From NCBI GenBank assembly GCA_009839745.1, contig VXPE01000030.1, positions 1-61,137 on the forward strand: DNA of 61,137 nucleotides, read 5' to 3'. A program made the position numbers and the translations under genes. Numbering within the stretch: the stretch's first letter is position 1; each line of letters starts with the position of its first letter. The DNA comes from Candidatus Poribacteria bacterium (GTDB taxonomy: Bacteria > Poribacteria > WGA-4E > WGA-3G). Shown here piece after piece: positions 48,729 through 61,137 of the stretch. The notes under the pieces were generated by a model. The model made no database searches and was not told the DNA's origin. It saw only the letters and a list, made by a program, of their open reading frames with translations.

Positions 48729-49481
48729 ATGCGCATCAAAATCCTCGCCGATGTTGGTAACGGAATTACGCTTCCTATCAACTATAACTATCCGCTCGCG
48801 GGTGTCATCTACCGGTTCCTCGCAGAATCCGACCCTGAATACGCCGCCTTTCTTCACAAGGAGGGTTACGCTGCCGCAGAAAAACGTTTCAAGCTCTTCA
48901 CCTTCTCGCAGCTTATGGCGGAACGCAGACGCATCACCGGTGCGACGATCCACTTCGGATCAACGTTGACGTGGTATATCACCTCCCCCGTCGAACGCTT
49001 CCTATCCCATTTCGCCGATACTTTGCTCACCGAGGGCAGATTGTCCATAGGTCAACATCAGTTGCGAATCAAGGATGTCACCGTGCCGCGTATTCCGCGC
49101 TTTCAACCCGAGATGTATTTCCGATGTCTCTCCCCAATCACGATGTCTACAAAACGCGAGCGTGATGGTAAACAGGTCATGCATTATTGCTTACCCGAGG
49201 ATCCCGCCTTCTCCGAACTCATCCGTCAGAACCTCATCCGCAAACACGAAGCGATCCACGGTCGCGCCCCGCATGACGATACCTTGACCTTCACTTTTGA
49301 CAAAGGCTATATTGACAGACGACAAGGACGTGTCACCCGTCTCGTAGACTACAAAGGCATCAAGATTCGCGGCGTGATGTGTCCTTTTGATGTTTCTGGG
49401 AGTATTCCCTTAATCCAGATCGGCTACGAATGTGGCTTCGGCGACAAAAACAGTGCAGGCTTCGGCATGGCAGAAGTCTAA
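48729..49481 (+). CDS. cas6: CRISPR endoribonuclease Cas6
   Basis: This 250-residue protein cuts the CRISPR precursor RNA within repeats. It has the Cas6 layout of two RRM-like domains, and the C-terminal glycine-rich loop GYECGFGDKNSAGFGM (near residues 232-247) is diagnostic. The N-terminal YNYPLAGVIYRFL is the helix where Cas6 proteins carry a catalytic His; here no His is visible in that stretch, so the catalytic residue is not clear. The start follows the CopD-like stop by one base. It is 1.7 kb away from cas8b, with a partial second copy of its 3' end in between. Confidence 0.9.
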   Translation: MRIKILADVGNGITLPINYNYPLAGVIYRFLAESDPEYAAFLHKEGYAAAEKRFKLFTFSQLMAERRRITGATIHFGSTLTWYITSPVERFLSHFADTLLTEGRLSIGQHQLRIKDVTVPRIPRFQPEMYFRCLSPITMSTKRERDGKQVMHYCLPEDPAFSELIRQNLIRKHEAIHGRAPHDDTLTFTFDKGYIDRRQGRVTRLVDYKGIKIRGVMCPFDVSGSIPLIQIGYECGFGDKNSAGFGMAEV

Positions 49482-50420: not shown

Positions 50421-50768
50421 ATGAAATCTATGCTGCTTCTTTTGATATTCCTCTGTATTCTCGCGGGGTCTTCGGTTAGCCCTGCGGCATTGACGGTTGA
50501 AGATCTCGAGAAAATTGACACAAAAATTAAAGAGTCGGAGACACGCATTAAAGAAAATACCAACACACAGATAGAGAATATCAAGACCCTAATCACCTGG
50601 CTCATAGCGTTGTTCGTCGCCATGATAGCTCTGATAGGCATTCCGCTGGTAGCTTTGACTGTCATGATAGGCTGGCGCAGCACAAGAGATCACGAACAGG
50701 AGAAAATCAATCAAGAACTTAGAGGAGAAATTGAAACCCTCAAACAACAGCAAACTGTCCGCCCATAA
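50421..50768 (+). CDS. Small membrane protein with a coiled coil
   Basis: I do not recognise this 115-residue protein. It has a signal or anchor peptide (MKSMLLLLIFLCILAG), a charged helix with heptad character (LEKIDTKIKESETRIKENT), a membrane helix (LITWLIALFVAMIALIGIPL) and a glutamate-rich coiled tail (INQELRGEIETLKQQQ). AAAGGAGAG lies before the ATG. It is placed between cas6 and the cas6 fragment and has no sign of a CRISPR role. Its plan resembles the small protein at 38.1 kb. Confidence 0.65.
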   Translation: MKSMLLLLIFLCILAGSSVSPAALTVEDLEKIDTKIKESETRIKENTNTQIENIKTLITWLIALFVAMIALIGIPLVALTVMIGWRSTRDHEQEKINQELRGEIETLKQQQTVRP

Positions 50769-50783
50769 CTCGGTTTGACTCTT

Positions 50784-51066
50784 GTGAGGATCCCGCCTTC
50801 TCAGAACGCATCCGTCAGAACCTCATCCGCAAACACGAAGCGATCCACGGTCGCGCCCCGCATGACGATACCTTGACCTTCACTTTTGACAAAGGCTATA
50901 TTGACAGACGACAAGGACGTGTCACCCGTCTCGTAGACTACAAAGGCATCAAGATTCGCGGCGTGATGTGTCCTTTTGATGTTTCTGGGAGTATTCCCTT
51001 AATCCAGATCGGCTACGAATGTGGCTTCGGCGACAAAAATAGTGCAGGCTTCGGCATGGTAGATGT
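50784..51066 (+). pseudogene. Duplicated 3' fragment of cas6
   Basis: This stretch repeats the last 94 or so codons of cas6 (49195-49477) almost base for base, with only a few changes near each end (for example GAACTC to GAACGC, GGCAGAAG to GGTAGATG). It keeps the reading frame and the glycine-rich loop, but has no upstream part and no start codon with a ribosome site. It ends just before the cas8b promoter. The fragment is most easily explained as what was left of an older cas6 next to cas8b. Confidence 0.85.
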
Positions 51067-51082
51067 CCAAACAAATTTTAAT

Positions 51083-51111
51083 TTGAATCTCATTAGTAAA
51101 AATTGTATAAT
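51083..51111 (+). promoter_or_regulatory. Sigma70 promoter for the cas8b-led operon
   Basis: TTGAAT and TATAAT are 17 bases apart, ending 35 bases before the cas8b ATG. A strong ribosome site (GGGAGG, 51133-51138) follows. The operon from cas8b onward can thus be expressed independently of cas6. Confidence 0.65.
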
Positions 51112-51146
51112 ATATTTCTAACACTTTCTGAAGGGAGGTAAATGCT

Positions 51147-52568
51147 ATGCCAATTTACGAAAAATTGATGGGAAATCCGTTTGTTGATGCGGGGGTTTGT
51201 GGAATTTGTGAATGGTTGGAAAGGCGACCTCAGCCAGAGGAAATTACAACTACAGACCTTGAGGTGATGGTTGAGGAATTTATTCCTATGGCAGCGAAGT
51301 GGGAAAAATGGGGTTCAATTTTTACACTTAATCATTCACTAACTAATCCTTCGAAAAAAAAAGATGAACGGCTAGCTCATTTCAGAGGAATGCTTCTTGA
51401 CTATATTCATAATGTCAAGGAACTTGATCAGATTGGCGATTGTATGGGATGTGGTAGACGTGACGTAGGATCAACACCTTTGCTTGATAAAACAGGCGTT
51501 CCACTAACAGGTGGAAAGAATAGTAACTTTTTCCCTGTTTTCTCCGAAGGAGCAGGTTATTGCCCCGCTTGTAGTTTCTCGATTCAGTTTTTACCCTTTT
51601 CTTTGGTTGCGACTGGGAAAAATGGTGGAAGATTCCTTATGCTTCATTCCAAATCTTGGGAACTTATGCGAATTTGGACAATACGGTGTATCCAAGGTAT
51701 TAAACAACAATATTCTCAACAACAATCAGGAGAATGTTTTAAGCCTGATTATGAAAATTCTCGCAATGGTTTGTTTTACATGGTGCGGGAAATGATTATT
51801 GAATGTGAGGAAATGCAGCTTTATGATGAAATCACAGATAAAGATGTATCTATGGAAGTTTACTCCTTTACAAACAACAATCAGTTTCCAGATATTGAAA
51901 TCTTTTACATCCCGTCTTCTGTCTTTCAATTTTTATCTGCCGCCGAGCAGAATCCCTATAAGGATGCCTGGTACGAGATCGTCCAAATCGGTTACGGGAG
52001 GGGGAAATCTAAAAAAGATTACAAGAAGTCAAGAAACCTTGTATATGAGTACCTATTAGAAGATCGATCCATTCGTGGCTTCTTTCTAAGCCGGCGTACT
52101 CAAAAACATCGCGGAAATTGGGAATTATTTTCCCTTTATTTACAGAAGGTGAGAAACATGAAACCAACACGGATTGAGAAAATTAAGCAGGTTGGCGATT
52201 TAATTGCAGAGAGTATCCGTAAATCTGAAAAGCGTGGATTAAATCGACTCCAAGATTTAGAAAATGCAACAACTTATTTTGACTGCCGCAGCGTTTTATT
52301 ACGTATCATTAGAGATAGGATTGTTCAAAAGGAACCAGAGCCGCTGTTCTCGTTTGATGATTGTGTTGAACATATTTTTATTTCTGCTGATAATGCTCAA
52401 TCTTGGAGTGATGAGTTAGATGATAGTGAGTTGGATGAAGAAGAAAAAGAACAGTTGAGACATTCTATAAATGATAATGTCAGGTTTTGGCGTGAAACCC
52501 GTGACTTGCTGCTTTTTCGGATTTATGAACAACTTCACAGTTGGTTAACTGAACAGGAGGATAATTAA
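51147..52568 (+). CDS. cas8b: Cascade large subunit Cas8b1 (Cst1, CXXC-CXXC type)
   Basis: This 473-residue protein is the large subunit of the I-B Tneap (Cst) interference complex. Its mark is the zinc-binding set C99-x2-C102 (CMGCGRR) and C139-x2-C142 (YCPACSF), with an extra C18/C21 pair (CGICEW) near the front. The rest is helical. It should bind the crRNA 5' handle and recognise the PAM. It ends three bases before the cas7 ATG. Its sequence is AT-rich compared with the other cas genes. Confidence 0.88.
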   Translation: MPIYEKLMGNPFVDAGVCGICEWLERRPQPEEITTTDLEVMVEEFIPMAAKWEKWGSIFTLNHSLTNPSKKKDERLAHFRGMLLDYIHNVKELDQIGDCMGCGRRDVGSTPLLDKTGVPLTGGKNSNFFPVFSEGAGYCPACSFSIQFLPFSLVATGKNGGRFLMLHSKSWELMRIWTIRCIQGIKQQYSQQQSGECFKPDYENSRNGLFYMVREMIIECEEMQLYDEITDKDVSMEVYSFTNNNQFPDIEIFYIPSSVFQFLSAAEQNPYKDAWYEIVQIGYGRGKSKKDYKKSRNLVYEYLLEDRSIRGFFLSRRTQKHRGNWELFSLYLQKVRNMKPTRIEKIKQVGDLIAESIRKSEKRGLNRLQDLENATTYFDCRSVLLRIIRDRIVQKEPEPLFSFDDCVEHIFISADNAQSWSDELDDSELDEEEKEQLRHSINDNVRFWRETRDLLLFRIYEQLHSWLTEQEDN

Positions 52569-52570
52569 TC

Positions 52571-53608
52571 ATGTCTAAGCATCTTATTGGACTAATGCTT
52601 ATTGATGCCCCTTATTCAGCGTTGAATAACGCTGATAAACCGAAGGATCGTCCTAACGATAACATAGTTGTTGTTAAAACCCTTAAAAAAGGGCGCAGAG
52701 GACAGACTTATCCCTATGTGTCCGGTCAAGCATGGCGAAATTGGTGGCGCACGACTCTTGAACATGAATTTGACGACTGGCATAACTCACCTATAGATCG
52801 AGAGGATAAAATCGCATATACCAAAGTAGATCCGGTAAAATATGACGATGACGATGTTTTTGGTTATATGCGTGCGCGAAGTGAAGGGAAAGGAAAACAA
52901 AAGGAAGATCTTACGGTAACCCGTTTGTCCCCTCTCAAATGCTCACCGCTTATTTCCATTTCACCACAAATCCCAACGAACGATTTTGGTGTGATGGCAC
53001 GTCAGGAAGGGGACCCAGTGCCTTATGAACACCAATTTTACTCTTGTATTCTACAAGGTATCTTTTCTCTAAACCTTAGTGCGGTCGGATCGTTTTCCGC
53101 TGTTAACAAGACAGGGTATAAAAATATCCGTGACGACTATGTTCCAACTATTGAAGCCGCACGTGGAACAAGAGAAAATGAAGATTCACCGTGGGTCCTT
53201 CCGAAAGATATCCGCGTCCGACGTTGTCAACAGACACTTAAGGCACTTCCTTTTCTCAGCGGAGGGGCAAAGTTGACATCACATCTCACTGACGTTACTC
53301 CCAAACTCATTATTCTTTCTGTGCTTAAGGGCGGCAACCATCCCTTCATGAATTTAATAGTTGAAGAAGAAGGGCTTGGTAAATTAAGTCTGTCTGCCTT
53401 GCGAGAGATCATAGGAGATTACAAAGACAGATTTTGCGATGCAATTTACATCGGTAGACGGAGCGGGTTCATGGATGACATAGACGGCAAACTCACTGAG
53501 TTAGCAGGTGACAACAATCTGCCGGGTGAGATCGTTTACGATACACCAAATACGGTAATTACTCAACTGTCACAAAAGTTAGAAACTCACGTTGGAGACA
53601 CACCATGA
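52571..53608 (+). CDS. cas7: Cascade backbone protein Cas7 (Cst2/DevR family)
   Basis: This 345-residue protein is the backbone subunit that polymerises along the crRNA. The Cst2/DevR family marks are LIGLMLIDAPYSALNNAD at the front, the glycine-rich loop TYPYVSGQAWRNWWRTTLE and the later LSLNLSAVGSFSAVNKTGYK. It overlaps cas5 by four bases (ATGA). In Myxococcus a relative (DevR) takes part in autoregulation of the operon; nothing here shows such regulation. It is full length. Confidence 0.9.
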   Translation: MSKHLIGLMLIDAPYSALNNADKPKDRPNDNIVVVKTLKKGRRGQTYPYVSGQAWRNWWRTTLEHEFDDWHNSPIDREDKIAYTKVDPVKYDDDDVFGYMRARSEGKGKQKEDLTVTRLSPLKCSPLISISPQIPTNDFGVMARQEGDPVPYEHQFYSCILQGIFSLNLSAVGSFSAVNKTGYKNIRDDYVPTIEAARGTRENEDSPWVLPKDIRVRRCQQTLKALPFLSGGAKLTSHLTDVTPKLIILSVLKGGNHPFMNLIVEEEGLGKLSLSALREIIGDYKDRFCDAIYIGRRSGFMDDIDGKLTELAGDNNLPGEIVYDTPNTVITQLSQKLETHVGDTP

Positions 53609-54399
53609 AGGTAATTCGCGTTCATATTACCGGCTGGATCGCCTCTTTCCGGAATCCGTTATTTATTAGCGGATTCCAACCGACACTCCCTTTGCCACCA
53701 CTCTCGACTCTCTATGGGCTCTTTACCGCCGCAAAAGGTGATTGGGTTACACCGCACGACACTGCAATCGGATTTGTTTTTAAAAGTAACGGAAAAGCTG
53801 TTGATTTAGAAACTATCTACGAGTTTGAGGATACTTTGAGTCCGAACTCTAAGATAAACAAGCAAAAATCTGGTTTAGGTTCTTCAAAAGTATTGTACTC
53901 AATGCGTATGAACCCTAACATAAAAAAACGTGAATTTCTCGTTGAACCTCAGCTCTATCTCTATACCCCAGAGATATGGTTAAAGGAAGCGTTTGAACGC
54001 CCTCGGTATCCGTTGCTCTTGGGACGCTCCTCCGATTTAGCAACTGTCAAATCCATAGATGAAATTGAATTAGAGAGTAGGTCGGAAACGACTTATCAAA
54101 ATACGATAATCCCATTCCCTGACCCACAACTTTATGGACAGGTCCAGGCATTGCCTACGCACTTCACGGCGGAAATACCCCGTCGGCAATGCGGCACGCG
54201 TGCTTTTTGCATCATTACCGAACCGATAAAGTACAGGGGCAATGTTCTACACGATCCTGATAAGAATTGGGGGGTGTATTTGCATGAACGCATCCCGGGA
54301 AATTTCACAGTCCCTGTTGAGCAAACAAGGAAACCTATTGACAAAAACTATCAAATTCCAGACGTGAGCGGAAACCAGATGCAATTTTTTGATCCCTAA
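53605..54399 (+). CDS. cas5: Cascade subunit Cas5 (Cst type)
   Basis: This 264-residue protein caps the 5' handle of the crRNA in Cascade. The front has the RAMP strand and glycine-rich turn (IRVHITGWIASFRNPLFISG, then LPPLSTLYGLFTAAKG), typical of Cas5. It overlaps cas7 by four bases. It is the last gene before the transposase insertion, and its stop is followed within 12 bases by the first REP palindrome. The end (QMQFFDP) is intact, so the insertion did not damage it. Confidence 0.9.
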   Translation: MKVIRVHITGWIASFRNPLFISGFQPTLPLPPLSTLYGLFTAAKGDWVTPHDTAIGFVFKSNGKAVDLETIYEFEDTLSPNSKINKQKSGLGSSKVLYSMRMNPNIKKREFLVEPQLYLYTPEIWLKEAFERPRYPLLLGRSSDLATVKSIDEIELESRSETTYQNTIIPFPDPQLYGQVQALPTHFTAEIPRRQCGTRAFCIITEPIKYRGNVLHDPDKNWGVYLHERIPGNFTVPVEQTRKPIDKNYQIPDVSGNQMQFFDP

Positions 54400-54410
54400 C
54401 CCCAATACAT

Positions 54411-54486
54411 CGTAGGGGCGAGGTTCCCTCGCCCGTAGGAGAACAACAATCTACACAACCGTAGGGACGGGGCCCCTGGGCCCACA
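54411..54486. repeat. Two REP palindromes between cas5 and the transposase
   Basis: First, 54411-54435, CGTAGGGGCGAGGTTCCCTC then GCCCG. Second, 54460-54486, CGTAGGGACGGGGCCCCTGG then GCCCACAGG. They are direct copies with a different stem. Confidence 0.85.
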
Positions 54487-54501
54487 GGAGATATTTCCCT
54501 T

Positions 54502-55065
54502 ATGAGACCCAATCTTCCACGTCGCAAACCCACGCGCTTACGGGATTATGATTACAGCCAACCCGGTGCATCTTTCGTGACCGTCTGTGCCCAACACCGG
54601 AAATGTTTATTTGGGGCGATTGTGGACGAACAAATGCAATTGAACGCAATAAGCAAAATCGTCGTTGAATGTTGGAACCGTATTCCCCAACATTTTCCTT
54701 CCATTGGGTTAGGGGAGTCTGTTATCATGCCCAACCACATACACGGCATTATCACATGCAACCCCGTAGGGGCGGGGTCCCCCCACCCAATAGAAAACAC
54801 TTCTCACCGTAGGGGCGAGGTCCCCTCGCCCGCTTATAGAGGTTCACCTTCGTTAGGCAAAATCGTAGCCTACTTCAAATACCAATCCACCAAGTATATC
54901 AACCAACACCGCAATACACCCGGGACGCGCATTTGGCAAAGAAATTATCACGATCATATCATCCGAGACGACGCAGATTTACAACGAATTCACCAATACA
55001 TTCAGGACAATCCGATGAAATGGGCGTTAGATCAATTGCATCCTGACAATCCTTCCAAATGGTGA
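54502..55065 (+). CDS. REP-associated tyrosine transposase (RAYT, IS200/Y1-like)
   Basis: This 187-residue protein is a RAYT. It has the single-strand HUH endonuclease core: NHIHGI with H79 and H81, and the tyrosine region IVAYFKYQSTKYINQ with Y124/Y127, then the family C-terminus WQRNYHDHIIRDDADLQRIHQYI and NPMKW. RAYTs mobilise or copy REP palindromes. AGGAG lies ahead of the ATG. It is inserted between cas5 and cas3, in the operon's direction, with two REPs on either side. Two more REPs lie within its coding region (codons about 88-111) and keep it in frame, so the protein has an insert of 24 or so residues compared with close relatives. Confidence 0.88.
   Translation: MRPNLPRRKPTRLRDYDYSQPGASFVTVCAQHRKCLFGAIVDEQMQLNAISKIVVECWNRIPQHFPSIGLGESVIMPNHIHGIITCNPVGAGSPHPIENTSHRRGEVPSPAYRGSPSLGKIVAYFKYQSTKYINQHRNTPGTRIWQRNYHDHIIRDDADLQRIHQYIQDNPMKWALDQLHPDNPSKW
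54764..54832 (+). repeat. Two REP palindromes inside the transposase gene
   Basis: 54764-54788 and 54808-54832 (CGTAGGGGCGGGG / CCCCCACCC and CGTAGGGGCGAGG / CCTCGCCCG) are translated as part of the transposase between the HUH motif and the tyrosine helix. Confidence 0.85.
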
Positions 55066-55087
55066 GAGCAACCGAAATGGACACAGG

Positions 55088-55158
55088 CAGGCGTGGCAAC
55101 CACGCCCCTACGAAACCATGACAATATCTATGATGGGCGAGGGGACCTCGCCCCTACG
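55088..55158. repeat. Two REP palindromes between the transposase and cas3
   Basis: 55088-55112 (GCGTGGCAACCACGCCCCTA) and 55134-55158 (GGGCGAGGGGACCTCGCCCC) are in reverse orientation (ending CCCCTACG) compared with those on the other side. The second ends 13 bases before the cas3 ATG, next to its ribosome site. Confidence 0.85.
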
Positions 55159-55171
55159 CAGAGGAAAATCC

Positions 55172-57439
55172 ATGTCAATATTGTTTGCAAAAAGCAACCC
55201 ACCAGAAACGCTCCAAAAGCATACAGAAAATTGCCTCGACGTATACAATAGCCTCCGAGAACAGATGCCGTTTTTAACTGATGTCGCCCAAAATTCCAAT
55301 TTCTTTGAGCATCTTTTCTACGCTGTCGCCCTTCACGATTTCGGAAAGGCGGCGACGGGTTTCCAAAAACAACTCACCAATGGCACGAGATGGAATTATC
55401 GCCATGAAATTCTATCTGCAGGATTTGTAGCAGGCATTCAACTCTCACAAGAAGCAAAAAAGGCAATCGGACTTACAATCTTGACACATCATAAAGATAT
55501 TGACACCCTTAGGCACACATATAAGCACTATCCTGAAAGTGAAATCGGATTCCAAGTCTGGCAGGATAAAATCAAAGAATTAGAACCGACTTGGGAAGCG
55601 TTAATGGCAATTCAGAAACAAGTCACGCATTGGTGTCTTCTGGAAAAATGTATGTGGACACCTGTTACCTCAACTGACCAACTTGTTAACGGCTACCGCG
55701 ATTTCTTGCTGCCTTACCAAAGAACTAAAAGGAACCATCAATTAAAAAATCATCCTTTATCCATCCTACACAGCACTTATGGCATGCTCCTCCGTGGGTG
55801 TATGATTGCTTGCGATCATCTCGCTTCTGCGGGAAAAAACGAGATACAAACCGCACTTGACAACTTTAAAGCCTGCCTGATGCAACACATTAAACAAAAG
55901 GCAAAGCAAAAAGGACAGCAGTTTCATGGGTGGCAACCCTTTCAAAAAGTCTCTGGAGAAACAACCGGGCAACTCATGCTCTCCGCACCGACAGGCTCCG
56001 GTAAAACTGAAGCCGCACTCCTCTGGTCGGACAAAAATCAGGGCAAGACACTTGGTAACCGTGTCTTTTATGTTTTACCCTACACTGCCAGCATCAACGC
56101 TATGTATAATCGATTGACAGACCTCGTATCCGATGACAGAATCGGTGTGTTGCACGGTAAAGCCGCTTATTTCGTTTATCAACAGCTCGTCGATAAAGAC
56201 TATACCTATCAAGAGGCCGCAGCCGAAGCTCAAGATCAACAGAATCTGACTCGAAAAATTTGCCGACCTTACAAGGTACTCACCCCTTTTCAACTCCTAA
56301 AAGCCTTTTTTGGTATACGCGGCTTTGAGATGCAAATGGCGGAGATGTCCAAAGGGCTTTTTATTTTTGACGAAATCCACGCTTATGACCCGCACACAAC
56401 CGCGCTTATTCTCACAATGGTAGAACGACTCCGTAAAGATTACGACGCACAATTCTGCATTATGACTGCCACAATGCCACAGTTCCTCAAAGGCATGATT
56501 AGTAAGGTACTTGGTGATCCACCACAGATTGAAATGGGACCCGAAAAACGGGACACATACACTCGACACCGAGTCCAATTATTTGACGGAAATATCCATG
56601 ATGCAATTCCGCTGATTGAAGAGCGTCTCAGTCAAAAGCAGCGTGTTTTAGTCGTTTGTAATACTGTCCAGCAAGCACAAGATGTGTTTCAGGAATTAAT
56701 GGGTGTAACCGAAAACGCTAAACTCCTTCACAGCCGATTTATCCTCAAAGACCGAGAACGGATTGAAAAGGAACTTGAAGACGCAAACCTACTCGTCGGC
56801 ACGCAAGCCGTAGAAGTCTCACTCGATATTGATTTTGACTGTCTATTTTCAGAACCAGCCCCGATAGACGCGCTCATTCAACGTTTTGGTCGAGTTAACA
56901 GGAAAGGTGAAAAAGACATCTGTGATGTCCATATATGCGAAAAGGGTAGTGAAAACGACAAATATATCTATTCCCCTGACAAGATTGAACGCACTATAAA
57001 AGCGTTCGCATCTGTAGACGTTCTCCACGAATCCAAAATCCAAGGTCTGATTGATGAAGTTTATTCTGATGGCTATAATGAGGATGAACAGAAAAAATTT
57101 GATAGAGCGAAACAATTGTTTGAGCGGCACTTACAAGACATTGTGCCGTTTATTGAAGATTCTAAAGGGCATCAGGAATTTAATGAACTTTTTAAGAGTG
57201 TTGAGGTTGTACCCGAGTGTTATGAAGAAGATTTTTGGGTAAAAATTGAAAACCGTCAATACTACGAATCCAGAGCTTACATTGCCCAAATTAGTGAGCG
57301 TCAATTTGGAAGACTACACCGGGAGGGGCAGCTATATGAGCGTAAACGCTTTGGAAAGTTAGGGCAATGGTTCATAAAGGTTCGCTATGATGACATGCTC
57401 GGTTTACTTTTAAATGAACATAGCACAAACATCTTATAG
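55172..57439 (+). CDS. cas3: CRISPR helicase-nuclease Cas3
   Basis: This 755-residue protein unwinds and degrades target DNA recruited by Cascade. The N-terminal HD nuclease has H16, H55-D56 (ALHDFGKAATGF) and H106/H107 (THHKDID). The helicase has Walker A APTGSGKT (272-279), DEIH (400-403) in IFDEIHAYDP, TATMPQ, and motif VI QRFGRVNRKGE. The ATG at 55172 (MSILFAKS) has GAGGA just upstream, next to a REP palindrome; an in-frame codon at 55118 would extend it by the translated palindrome and is unlikely. The nuclease and helicase are both complete. Confidence 0.93.
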   Translation: MSILFAKSNPPETLQKHTENCLDVYNSLREQMPFLTDVAQNSNFFEHLFYAVALHDFGKAATGFQKQLTNGTRWNYRHEILSAGFVAGIQLSQEAKKAIGLTILTHHKDIDTLRHTYKHYPESEIGFQVWQDKIKELEPTWEALMAIQKQVTHWCLLEKCMWTPVTSTDQLVNGYRDFLLPYQRTKRNHQLKNHPLSILHSTYGMLLRGCMIACDHLASAGKNEIQTALDNFKACLMQHIKQKAKQKGQQFHGWQPFQKVSGETTGQLMLSAPTGSGKTEAALLWSDKNQGKTLGNRVFYVLPYTASINAMYNRLTDLVSDDRIGVLHGKAAYFVYQQLVDKDYTYQEAAAEAQDQQNLTRKICRPYKVLTPFQLLKAFFGIRGFEMQMAEMSKGLFIFDEIHAYDPHTTALILTMVERLRKDYDAQFCIMTATMPQFLKGMISKVLGDPPQIEMGPEKRDTYTRHRVQLFDGNIHDAIPLIEERLSQKQRVLVVCNTVQQAQDVFQELMGVTENAKLLHSRFILKDRERIEKELEDANLLVGTQAVEVSLDIDFDCLFSEPAPIDALIQRFGRVNRKGEKDICDVHICEKGSENDKYIYSPDKIERTIKAFASVDVLHESKIQGLIDEVYSDGYNEDEQKKFDRAKQLFERHLQDIVPFIEDSKGHQEFNELFKSVEVVPECYEEDFWVKIENRQYYESRAYIAQISERQFGRLHREGQLYERKRFGKLGQWFIKVRYDDMLGLLLNEHSTNIL

Positions 57440-57440
57440 C

Positions 57441-57509
57441 GGGCGTGGCAACCACGCCCCTACAAAATGATGAAAACGCTTATGACGGGCGTGGCAACCA
57501 CGCCCCTAT
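57441..57509. repeat. Two direct REP palindromes between cas3 and cas4
   Basis: 57441-57463 and 57487-57509 both read GGGCGTGGCAACCACGCCCC followed by TA. They are 46 bases apart and in the same orientation. Confidence 0.88.
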
Positions 57510-57534
57510 GGAACATTGAAAGGAGACACCACAA

Positions 57535-58044
57535 ATGCAAACCCCAGACCAACCGAACATCACCGGCACTGCTATCAACTATCTCTACGTTTGCACACGC
57601 AAGCTCTGGTTCTATCAGAACCACCTCGACATGGAACACACTTCGGAATATGTTGACATGGGAAACCACCTCCACGACGAGAGTTACCCTCGCGAAAAAC
57701 GCAGAGAATGGGACATTGACAATCTCGTGAAAATAGATTTCGTCGACAAATACGGTATCCTCCACGACATCAAATCGGGGCCTGCGATGGAAACCGCACA
57801 CGTCATGCAGCTCTGTTATTACCTCTATCTCCTCAAACAGAAGGGAATATCCAACAGGAAAGGCGTTATAAACTACCCACGCCAACGGCGAACGACCGAG
57901 GTCGAACTCACATCCGAAAAGGAAGAAGAAGTGGAAGCTGCTATCGAAAAAGTAAATGAAGTTGCAGCGTTACCGACACCCCCTCACGCCGACTATATGA
58001 AAATCTGTAAATCCTGTAGCTACCAAGAACTCTGTTGGAGTTAA
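57535..58044 (+). CDS. cas4: CRISPR adaptation nuclease Cas4
   Basis: This 169-residue protein trims prespacers. It has the iron-sulfur Cys set C20 (YVCTRKLWF) and C158/C161/C167 (ICKSCSYQELC), and the RecB-like nuclease residues D68 (KIDFVD) and D78-I-K80. AAAGGAG lies seven bases before the ATG. It directly precedes cas1 and is separated from it by a REP palindrome. Being shorter than many Cas4 proteins is normal for this group. Confidence 0.92.
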   Translation: MQTPDQPNITGTAINYLYVCTRKLWFYQNHLDMEHTSEYVDMGNHLHDESYPREKRREWDIDNLVKIDFVDKYGILHDIKSGPAMETAHVMQLCYYLYLLKQKGISNRKGVINYPRQRRTTEVELTSEKEEEVEAAIEKVNEVAALPTPPHADYMKICKSCSYQELCWS

Positions 58045-58059
58045 CAGACGGAATTCATC

Positions 58060-58084
58060 CGTAGGGGCGAGGTTGCCTCGCCCG
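58060..58084. repeat. REP palindrome between cas4 and cas1
   Basis: CGTAGGGGCGAGGTTGCCTC then GCCCG. It lies 16 bases after the cas4 stop and 20 before the cas1 ATG. Confidence 0.85.
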
Positions 58085-58104
58085 AAAAAGAAAAGGAACC
58101 CATT

Positions 58105-59100
58105 ATGTCCCGGAACTACTACATCACCCAACCCGGCAGACTGCGCCGGAAAGACAACACACTGTACTTAGAGCCAGAAAATGCCCGACGCATCCCGATC
58201 CCTATTGAAGACATTGACTCGCTTTACTTCTACGGTGAACTTGATCTTAACACCAGACTCCTCAACTTCCTTTCGCAGAAACATATTGCCTTTCATGTGT
58301 TTAACTACTACGGTTATTATTCAGGGAGTTACTACCCCAGAGAATACCTCAACTCGGGTTCCCTGCTCGTCAAACAGGTCCAACACTACGAAAGTCCCGC
58401 CAATCGGATGCCCCTGGCACACGAATTCGTTGCGTCCGCTGTTTTCAATATGTTACGGATTTTGCGGTATCACACGAATCGTGATAAAGATTGCGGGGCG
58501 CAAATTGAAGCAATTGAGGCAATTTTTGCTGAAAGCCAAACCGCAAAGAACACGAACGCATTGATGGGCTATGAGGGCCTCATCCGAGACACCTATTACA
58601 CTGCCTTCAATACAATTTTGGCGTTAAAGATACCTTTTGAAAAGCGCGTCCGTCGTCCACCGGACAATCCGATCAACGCCATCATCTCATTTGGCAACTC
58701 GATGATGTATACCGCCTGCCTCACGGAAATCTATCGCACGCAGCTCAACCCGACGGTCAGTTTCCTCCACGAGCCCGGAGAACGCCGCTTCTCGCTGAGT
58801 CTCGATCTTGCCGAAATTTTCAAACCACTCATCATTGACAGAATTATATTTCGTTTGTTCAACCGTCGGCAGCTCAACGAGTCAAAACACTTTGAAAATA
58901 GTATTGATGGGTGTTACCTCAATGACAAAGGGCGTAAACTGTTCATCGCTGCATTTGATGAGCAATTGAAGCAGACCGTTTCGCATCGAAAATTGAAACG
59001 TCACGTTTCCTACCAGCGACTCATCCGTTTGGAGTGTTACAAACTCATCAAGCATCTGGTCGGTATGGAGACCTATCAGGCACTGCGTCCGTGGTGGTAG
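58105..59100 (+). CDS. cas1: CRISPR integrase Cas1
   Basis: This 331-residue protein integrates new spacers with Cas2. The catalytic metal site is E157 (GYEGLIRDTYY), H222 (LHEPGERRFSLSLDLAEIF) and E237 or nearby Asp. The N-terminal beta-domain is typical (YYITQPGRLRRKDNTLYLE). It belongs to the Cas1 of type I-B systems. It is full length, with AAAGGAA in front of the ATG. It is followed by a 260-base gap that holds two palindromes before cas2. Confidence 0.93.
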   Translation: MSRNYYITQPGRLRRKDNTLYLEPENARRIPIPIEDIDSLYFYGELDLNTRLLNFLSQKHIAFHVFNYYGYYSGSYYPREYLNSGSLLVKQVQHYESPANRMPLAHEFVASAVFNMLRILRYHTNRDKDCGAQIEAIEAIFAESQTAKNTNALMGYEGLIRDTYYTAFNTILALKIPFEKRVRRPPDNPINAIISFGNSMMYTACLTEIYRTQLNPTVSFLHEPGERRFSLSLDLAEIFKPLIIDRIIFRLFNRRQLNESKHFENSIDGCYLNDKGRKLFIAAFDEQLKQTVSHRKLKRHVSYQRLIRLECYKLIKHLVGMETYQALRPWW

Positions 59101-59117
59101 GCACAATCTTAATTCTT

Positions 59118-59308
59118 ATACCATTTCTGAATAACCGTTTCTCATTAGCGAAAACCCGCTCGTAGGGGCGAGGTCCCCTCGCCCGTCTAATCCGTCCGAA
59201 TCCTCATAGCATTTCAAAATCTCTGAAATGCGAATTTATTTTTCAGATTTGGTATTAGAACACTACCGGCACAATAGGCATCGCAGGGGCGTGGTTACCG
59301 CGCCTGTC
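59118..59308. repeat. REPs and a miniature inverted element between cas1 and cas2
   Basis: A REP (CGTAGGGGCGAGGTCCCCTC then GCCCG) lies at 59161-59185 and a degenerate one (GCAGGGGCGTGG then CGCGCCTG) at 59283-59308. Around the first is an imperfect inverted pair, ATACCATTTCTGAA at 59118-59131 and TTCAGATTTGGTAT at 59242-59255. A hairpin GCATTTCA / TGAAATGC lies at 59209-59231. Confidence 0.6.
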
Positions 59309-59363: not shown

Positions 59364-59627
59364 ATGTACATCATTCTGGTTTACGACATTCAAGTCAAGC
59401 GCGTCGCGAAGGTCTGTAAATACCTCCGACAGCACCTCAATTGGATCCAAAATTCAGTCTTTGAAGGGCAGTTAACCAAAGCGCAGTTCGCACGAGTCAA
59501 ATCGAGGTTAGCGGCACTCACTGATCCCGAACAAGACTCTATCATTATCTATCAACTACGCGATGCCCGGTGGATGAATAAAGAGGTCATGGGAGTCGAT
59601 AAGAATCCCGCGACGAACCTACTCTAA
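59364..59627 (+). CDS. cas2: CRISPR-associated protein Cas2
   Basis: This 87-residue protein forms the scaffold for Cas1 during spacer integration. It has the Cas2 front ILVYDI with the conserved Asp D8, then VCKYLRQHLNWIQNSVFEG and LRDARW. GAGGAG lies before the ATG. It is normal length. It is separated from cas1 by about 260 bases with repeats, which is long for a type I operon. Confidence 0.95.
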   Translation: MYIILVYDIQVKRVAKVCKYLRQHLNWIQNSVFEGQLTKAQFARVKSRLAALTDPEQDSIIIYQLRDARWMNKEVMGVDKNPATNLL

Positions 59628-59884
59628 GCAAGTCATCTTCGAGGATATTGATATAAGACCTGCTGTCGACCTCGGTTACATGAAAGGTTTAGACGTATTT
59701 TACGTCTCCTATTTTTGAAAAAAAGTGAGGGTCAACCCCCGATTTGTAAGGATCTGTCGACCTCCCAGAGAATTTGCACGACTGCAGGTCGACAGCAGAT
59801 TCACCTTAAAAATAACATTCCTCAAAATTGACTTGACACGTCTCATAAGGATCGCGTATAATCTAATTATGATTTTCACAGAGC
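59628..59884 (+). promoter_or_regulatory. CRISPR leader with internal repeats
   Basis: The stretch between cas2 and the first repeat has the 13-base inverted pair CTGCTGTCGACCT (59660-59672) and AGGTCGACAGCAG (59786-59798), with a third, direct copy of CTGTCGACCT at 59753-59762. A hairpin AGACGTA-TTT-TACGTCT with a T run (59691-59716) may terminate the cas operon. An AT-rich part with a promoter follows. The CTGTCGACCT copies could be anchors for a leader-binding factor. Confidence 0.7.
59833..59862 (+). promoter_or_regulatory. Perfect sigma70 promoter for the CRISPR array
   Basis: TTGACA and TATAAT, both exact consensus, are 18 bases apart. The -10 box ends 22 bases before the first repeat, so transcription starts within the leader and reads into the array. 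Confidence 0.85.
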
Positions 59885-61137
59885 CTTTTAATCGAACCAG
59901 TATGGAATCGAAACTATAGACGTTGGAATGTATTTTCTCATGATTTGAAACTTTTAATCGAACCAGTATGGAATCGAAACGATCACAAGGGGGAAATAGC
60001 GAATAACTCTCAGATTCGCTTTTAATCGAACCAGTATGGAATCGAAACTTTACGGTAACCCTTTTGTTATTAATGGATTGCCATCTTTTAATCGAACCAG
60101 TATGGAATCGAAACCATAATTTTCCTCTATCTTATCTATAACATCTTCACCTTTTAATCGAACCAGTATGGAATCGAAACTTGATGAAATGTGTGTGTGG
60201 TTAGAAAAGAATCCTCTTTTAATCGAACCAGTATGGAATCGAAACGCGTAATCGCTGGCAGTCCTACCGCATCCCCCTCTTCTTTTAATCGAACCAGTAT
60301 GGAATCGAAACAAAATCTATAAACAGCGTCTAATCCTTCCTCCGCTGCCTTTTAATCGAACCAGTTTGGAATCGAAACAGCTTCCGATTCGTCTTGAAAT
60401 GGGGTCTCTGCATAGACTTTTAATCGAACCAGTTTGGAATCGAAACTTTATCGTTGTGGGGATATTTGAAGAAATCGCGGTACTTTTAATCGAACCAGTT
60501 TGGAATCGAAACACATGGTTCGTAGGGTGTTCGGGGTTTGGCATCGACTTTTAATCGAACCAGTTTGGAATCGAAACGAAAAAGGACTTGACGGTCGCGG
60601 AGCAAGTTCAGACTTTTAATCGAACCAGTTTGGAATCGAAACTCGAATACTGTTGCGCGGGGTGAAGTCGCAAATATACTTTTAATCGAACCAGTTTGGA
60701 ATCGAAACTCGTGGTGGTTATCACTGTTCGAAAACCTATATGGTTGCTTTTAATCGAACCAGTTTGGAATCGAAACATCTATCTGGTGATATAGGCTCGG
60801 AAAAGACTATTAACTTTTAATCGAACCAGTTTGGAATCGAAACTGAATTATGATCTCTGACCCTTTGGTGAAGTATTCCTGACTTTTAATCGAACCAGTT
60901 TGGAATCGAAACATCATCAATACCATATATGCCGAGTCAGACAGCATTACTTTTAATCGAACCAGTTTGGAATCGAAACATCATCAATACCATATATGCC
61001 GAGTCAGACAGCATTACTTTTAATCGAACCAGTTTGGAATCGAAACATCATCAATACCATATATGCCGAGTCAGACAGCATTACTTTTAATCGAACCAGT
61101 TTGGAATCGAAACATCATCAATACCATATATGCCGAG
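59885..61137 (+). CRISPR. CRISPR array, 19 repeats, continuing past the window end
   Basis: Nineteen complete 30-base repeats are seen at 59885, 59951, 60019, 60085, 60151, 60216, 60282, 60349, 60417, 60483, 60548, 60613, 60679, 60747, 60814, 60883, 60950, 61017 and 61084. Each begins CTTTTAATCGAACCAG and ends GGAATCGAAAC. Spacers are 35 to 39 bases. Repeats 1-7 have TAT and repeats 8-19 have TTT between CCAG and GG. The end GAAAC and the promoter upstream set the direction left to right. The last complete spacers (60913, 60980, 61047) are identical and a fourth begins at 61114. Confidence 0.98.

Follow-up and report, generated by a model that had tools for sequence, protein, structure and literature searches.

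The RAYT transposase, the REP palindrome, the REPtron and the local enrichment of REPs are already known. The TnpA-REP proteins of subclass 2.4 (Quentin et al. 2018, PMC6006769) have the same HUH and Y motifs, the same W-Q-R residues and the same flanking GTAG REPs as the element described here, and the REPtrons of E. coli and Marinomonas (PMC8266576) likewise have direct and inverted REPs on either side of a transposase gene, with REPs being locally enriched near the gene in Marinomonas. By contrast, the present unit resides inside a cas operon, a location absent from PMC6006769 (the word CRISPR does not occur in its text), and, unlike the E. coli and Marinomonas REPtrons, it occupies the same junction in many species. 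Mobile DNA also meets cas operons in the form of IS insertions (PMC10359306), but these interrupt and inactivate cas genes, whereas the insertion described here lies between genes in an operon whose cas frames are all open. Transposase genes also adjoin cas genes in CAST and CasMu (PMC8616872, PMC10910872), but the target nuclease of those systems is absent or inactive and their transposases are Tn7-like or Mu; the operon analyzed here has retained both domains of Cas3 (HD and helicase), cas1, cas2, and a CRISPR array, and its transposase is of the HUH/Y1 type. The models matched by the genes of the operon include no Tn7-like or Mu transposase and no TniQ. A literature search, mostly outside subscription papers, found no report of RAYTs or REPs in cas operons.

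The window (the whole stretch of 61,137 nucleotides that was analyzed) is contig C30 of the 5.04-Mb draft genome of a sponge bacterium, a member of Candidatus Poribacteria. Profile searches with NCBIfam and Pfam identified a complete type I-B CRISPR-cas operon at its end, with all elements on the forward strand and in the order cas6 (48729–49481; TIGR01877, 146 bits), cas8b1 (Cst1; 51147–52568; TIGR01908), cas7 (52571–53608; TIGR02585), cas5 (53605–54399; TIGR01895), RAYT, an intact cas3 encoding HD and helicase domains (55172–57439; TIGR01587 and TIGR01596), cas4 (57535–58044; TIGR00372), cas1 (58105–59100; TIGR03641), cas2 (59364–59627; TIGR01573), and a CRISPR array recognized from the sequence (59885–61137), which comprises 19 repeats inside the window and continues past its end.

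The operon has several other features. The 3' end of cas6 (49239–49481) is present in a second copy (50873–51121), and a small open reading frame between cas6 and this partial copy (50421–50768) has hydrophobic and coiled-coil-like stretches; among the relatives, cas6 occurs in two full copies in locus L071 and with a partial second copy in L094. A perfect TTGACA-18-TATAAT promoter-like site (59833–59862) is located immediately upstream of the array. The final spacers of the array before the end of the contig (60910–61137) are identical (ATCATCAATACCATATATGCCGAGTCAGACAGCATTA), either because a spacer was duplicated or because of an assembly artifact where the contig ends. A comparison of the array spacers with the rest of the window yielded no 18-base matches.

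The RAYT gene that the first-pass annotation had recognized between cas5 and cas3 is indeed present (54502–55065, forward strand), and its product of 187 residues was assigned to group 4 (subclass 2.4) of the TnpA-REP proteins by profiles, alignment, and a fold model. Its score with NF047646 is 59 bits, which is below the equivalog cut-off of 80 and within the range of the other group-4 RAYTs tested (51–60 bits); with PF01797, it scores 25.3, above the cut-off of 23. In an alignment of 50 sequences, His79 and His81 of the HUH motif and the catalytic Tyr166 together with Asn170 (Y...N P motif) are invariant; the alignment pattern suggests that the latter two correspond to Tyr115 and Asn119 of E. 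coli, which we take to be their equivalents. W145, Q146, and R155 are also invariant and have the same spacing as W94, Q95, and R104, which recognize GTAG in E. coli (PMC6006769). Because a phmmer search of the PDB returned only a weak match to the TnpA-REP structure 4er8 (E = 0.51), the question was decided by fold comparison. The AlphaFold2 model (pLDDT 84.9) has 30 PDB matches at E ≤ 0.001, all of them transposases, including the solved structures of IS200, IS608, ISDra2, and TnpA-REP 4er8 (TM 0.54/0.60), which identifies a Y1/HUH fold. The closest named relatives of the protein are encoded by Candidatus Poribacteria MAGs, and none of the PADLOC-DB models matches it. As regards the multicopy mobility of IS200/IS605 elements, the entire genome contains a single RAYT copy of this kind, and repeated arrivals at the same junction are indicated among its relatives.

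The REPs of the operon follow the consensus GTAGGGGCGNGG-NNN-CCNCGCC, and their reported distribution, namely before, inside, and after the RAYT gene and in every junction as far as cas2, was borne out, with two of the copies (at 54461 and 54766) being degenerate. The left edge of the inserted unit is a perfect REP with a GTAG head and an 8-bp stem (54412–54434, forward; RNA fold z = −4.8), followed by a degenerate copy (54461–54483, forward) that folds no better than shuffled sequences (z = 0.15) and is perfect in the relative G008. Two REPs lie in frame in the RAYT linker between the HuH and Y motifs, one imperfect (54766–54788, forward; VGAGSPHP) and one an exact match to the pattern (54809–54831, forward; RRGEVPSP). 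The inserted unit closes with two inverted REPs on the reverse strand: one of the GTGG/CCAC type 3' of RAYT (55090–55111) and an exact match (55135–55157) that forms the right edge of the unit immediately 5' of the ribosome site of cas3; both were recognized by pattern and RNA fold. Further REPs identified in the same way are located in the cas3–cas4 junction (57442–57463 and 57488–57509, both reverse) and, as exact matches to the pattern, in the cas4–cas1 junction (58061–58083, forward) and the cas1–cas2 junction (59162–59184, forward), which also contains a decayed copy with one mismatch (59283–59304, forward). The abutting junctions between cas8, cas7, and cas5 contain no REPs.

The stems of the REPs are real, because the two stem positions that the search pattern did not constrain form Watson-Crick pairs in 52 of 58 copies from the loci, whereas shuffled sequences reach a mean of 23 and a maximum of 35. 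Most REPs of the operon also fold as RNA well beyond shuffled sequences (z from −2.3 to −4.8). A scan in the sense direction detected no T tail of an intrinsic terminator at any operon REP, and a role as intrinsic terminators was rejected on this basis. The in-frame REPs between HuH and Y are not regarded as a novelty because PMC6006769 already gives them for subclass 2.4, and for this subclass only. A survey of 76 linkers across many phyla found GT[AG]GG or its complement in 72 of them and stems of at least 8 bp in 64, compared to 9 of 76 in control windows.

A comparison of the cas loci of 25 operons revealed that the cas5–cas3 junction is variable among relatives. The RAYT of the window (RAYT-1) directly follows cas5 in 13 of the 13 genomes of the genus found to possess this cas5, although both cas5 and cas3 are visible in only nine of them because the contigs of G002, G011, G014, and G029 end near RAYT. 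The layout consists of cas5, one to three direct REPs, RAYT with its linker REPs, inverted REPs (between one and five on contigs long enough to show them), and cas3. By contrast, the junction is empty in seven outgroup operons, where it measures 9–36 bp and the ribosome site of cas3 is kept, and in G040 (about 160 bp) it contains REP-like remnants but no RAYT. The second operon of G034 and the operons of G037 and G049 have the same junction filled by an unrelated RAYT of the HYNPVKHG type (RAYT-2), which has its own REPs (GTAGGTCGGGTAGAGCG...GCGAAACCCGAC), is present as a single copy in nearly all genomes in which it was found, and is located away from these cas genes in genomes other than those three. 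G034 possesses two I-B cas operons (L079 and L094), which carry RAYT-1 in one and RAYT-2 in the other at the same cas5–cas3 junction. A relative of RAYT-1 in G056 is located 5' of cas8.

Not all RAYT copies are intact. In G001, a deletion from REP to REP involving a linker REP has removed the HUH half, so that the gene is reduced to its 3' half, and the copy of G026 has acquired stop codons and lost a His; neither operon shows any sign of cas failure. Such decay argues against RAYT being an accessory gene of the CRISPR system that is kept by selection for a contribution of its HUH nuclease to adaptation or interference (e.g., the processing of single-stranded prespacers together with a DEDDh exonuclease). 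The same is true for the empty junctions in similar cas operons, the replacement of RAYT by an unrelated one, and its differing place in the operons of relatives.

The phylogeny of the flanking genes indicates that the content of the junction changed at least five times on the cas7+cas5 tree and at least six times on the cas3 tree. The loci with RAYT-2 are not monophyletic (p-AU 5e-7 on the cas7+cas5 tree and 3e-6 on the cas3 tree), and neither are those with RAYT-1 (p-AU 4e-5). The median synonymous divergence (dS) of the RAYT-1 core is 0.53, about a third of the values for the flanking cas genes (1.25–2.1 for cas genes overall and 1.25–1.6 for cas5, cas7, cas3, cas4, and cas1 of the same genomes). 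Likewise, the fraction of identical codons at conserved residues is higher in RAYT (0.62–0.94) than in the cas genes (0.45–0.70), and RAYT-2 shows the same trend (0.67–0.76 vs. 0.41–0.56 for the flanking cas genes). Codon bias was rejected as the source of the low RAYT dS; it would yield an identity of 0.46 over a baseline of 0.38, a difference of only about 0.08. Separate trees of the two RAYT halves, in which an exchange inside the linker was sought, had few sites and were mostly unresolved.

The numerous changes in junction content, together with the low dS of RAYT, point to a repeated entry of the units. Judging from these sequence comparisons, the RAYT units appear to be younger in the junctions than the junctions themselves, having either entered several times or been swapped among operons. 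A single old insertion inherited with the cas operon, with later REP copies arising by local decay and duplication, would account for the same place and strand of RAYT throughout the genus and for the conserved arrangement of REPs to its left and right. Nevertheless, it is contradicted by a synonymous divergence far below that of the cas neighbors and by RAYT-1 and RAYT-2 loci that each fail to form one clade, unless gene conversion through REPs is frequent enough to explain both; it was rejected on these grounds and seems improbable. The dN/dS of the RAYT-1 core (about 0.18) documents purifying selection, which, together with the retention of HUH and Tyr in most copies, would favor the role of an accessory gene outlined above.

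A genome-wide search for REPs with the same head rejects an equal density of palindromes throughout the genome, the outcome that would have spoken against a bias toward cas genes. The 5.04-Mb genome contains 56 matches to GTAGGGGCGNGGNNNCCNCGCC, seven of which are located in a 4.8-kb stretch of the operon, where only 0.05 would be expected (Poisson P about 1e-13); the density of REPs in the operon is approximately 150-fold that of the rest of the genome. The control search with the reversed pattern returned no matches.

The palindromes, which the first-pass annotation had tied to the presence of the transposase, do occur in relatives without this RAYT but in lower numbers: the median per genome of the genus is 38 in the 13 with RAYT-1 and 12 in the 25 without, an approximately threefold difference (P = 5e-5) in counts that may score one site twice, once per strand. 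The excess persists after subtraction of eight local copies from each RAYT-1 genome (P = 0.002); like all cross-genome tests except those based on trees, these are uncorrected for phylogeny. When the cas operons of sister genomes were compared, extra REPs outside the flanks of RAYT were present in six of nine operons with RAYT-1 and in none of seven without (P = 0.011, uncorrected for kinship). The higher REP counts and the extra REPs in the operons support the notion that RAYT drives the number of REPs, as in other systems, and REPs without this RAYT exist as well.

An association of group-4 RAYTs with cas genes is not restricted to Poribacteria. Among the best 80 group-4 RAYT loci in GTDB genomes, which were surveyed first, two outside this phylum were cas-adjacent, both in Geobacterales: L131, with a DEDDh exonuclease, RAYT, and cas3 of type I-C, and L140, with RAYT, a DEDDh exonuclease, and cas3 of type I-E. 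In the next sample, 60 Geobacterales loci that were picked by RAYT similarity alone after the link had first been noticed, a query panel of type I-B, I-C, and I-E proteins detected cas genes within 2.5 kb of 21. In one more, L202 (7341–12285), RAYT directly precedes cas9 and cas1 of a type II system, and 24 of the 64 group-4 RAYT loci of Geobacterales in total are located in cas loci of type I-C, I-E, or II. Most of these RAYTs are located directly 5' of cas3 and others before cas9 or cas1; in L210, L213, L215, L239, and L253, RAYT lies between Cascade and cas1. By contrast, no cas loci were detected in 20 random windows of five of these Geobacterales genomes or near the 72 group-4 RAYT loci of other phyla. 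Because the panel (I-B, I-C, and I-E queries plus arrays), which was applied mostly to draft MAGs, misses other types, all these neighbor rates are lower bounds. In Calditrichaeota, a distance of about 0.6 kb separates a group-4 RAYT from a CRISPR array of 14 repeats (L154, 8495–10471), with a small open reading frame in between that appears, by reading only, to be glyoxalase-like.

The cas linkage of RAYTs follows their phylogeny. In a tree of 149 RAYTs, it requires nine changes, compared to a mean of 32.5 and a minimum of 27 after shuffling, and the cas-linked tips fall into clade A (16 of 21), clade B (5 of 5), and the poribacterial clade (12 of 13), with three more among other Geobacterales. 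Within the clades, the linkage persists, whereas cas subtype and exact place vary. It is conceivable that there is no special link and that intergenic REPtrons simply persist where they are harmless, with cas loci being chance sites kept by survivorship, because REPs abound across the genome and also in relatives that lack this RAYT, and the majority of other group-4 RAYTs have no cas genes nearby (0 of 72). However, this is highly improbable in view of the occurrence of two families of RAYT in a single junction of about 30 bp, the contrast between 24 of 64 RAYT loci and 0 of 20 random windows, and the strong clustering of the linkage by lineage. The occurrence of related RAYTs at like gene boundaries in the CRISPR operons of other species and of another phylum is a recurring partnership or infestation rather than one chance insertion.

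The same distribution, with a linkage that spans types I-B, I-C, I-E, and II, would also agree with an accessory function. RAYT and cas genes share the same strand in all 23 Geobacterales loci that were scored, but co-direction is suggestive only and weak by itself because RAYTs at other loci also share their strand with approximately 61% of their downstream and 80% of their upstream neighbors. A DEDDh (DnaQ-like) exonuclease, which PADLOC already lists as cas-associated, adjoins RAYT in L131 (9357–9992), where the exonuclease and RAYT genes share 4 bases, and also in L140 (10714–11241), L202, L207, L239, and L244. Considering the decayed, missing, replaced, and relocated RAYTs, we nevertheless regard selection for such a function as an unlikely explanation.

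The element that separates cas5 from cas3 probably represents a cas-tropic mobile REPtron, a commensal rather than an essential cas component, whose lineage prefers CRISPR-cas loci. It comprises a group-4 RAYT, i.e., an HUH/Y1 transposase of single-stranded DNA, between its own GTAG-footed hairpins, which stand in direct orientation at its left and in inverted orientation at its right. The gene is co-directional and located at the boundaries of cas modules (before cas3 or the effector, or before cas1), its core is under purifying selection, and the frames and ribosome sites of its neighbors are intact. The dead copies of G001 and G026 count against this reading as well. By analogy with the RAYTs of E. 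coli, Stenotrophomonas, and Marinomonas (PMC8266576), the enzyme would recognize the GTAG-footed hairpin on single-stranded DNA, cut and join there, and thereby seed new REPs in the vicinity. Units bounded by REPs, as well as single REPs, may then spread by the action of RAYT or by recombination between REPs, and new genomes may be reached by riding on, and recombining among, cas loci that move horizontally. Homologous exchange through REPs could also be the route of spreading in place of transposition.

The cas-tropic REPtron retains only part of the scenario originally proposed, in which one transposase spread its REPs along the operon. The cognate REPs are indeed concentrated there and more numerous where RAYT is present, but this is not the outcome of one transposase entering one operon: a single local spread does not account for the two unrelated RAYTs that occupy one junction across the genus, the five to six or more changes of its content, or the presence of RAYTs in other cas subtypes of Geobacterales.

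The positions at module boundaries would also fit a regulatory effect, because the hairpins may separate the expression of Cascade from that of Cas3 and the adaptation genes. More tentatively, and with considerable doubt, the cas-resident RAYTs might represent a new ancillary family of CRISPR systems, namely HUH nucleases, often encoded next to a DEDDh exonuclease, that either prepare single-stranded DNA for the uptake of spacers or have cas loci as their normal niche, with the REPs as their marks.

RAYTs have been called domesticated transposases whose benefit for the host is unknown (PMC8049555). The RAYT lineages that repeatedly settle at the module boundaries of cas loci, co-directionally with the cas genes, provide a concrete and testable setting for this question. 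If RAYT or its hairpins affect the expression of cas genes or the uptake of spacers, CRISPR systems would have an overlooked accessory gene; if cas loci are merely good vehicles, immune operons would be hosts of a commensal element.
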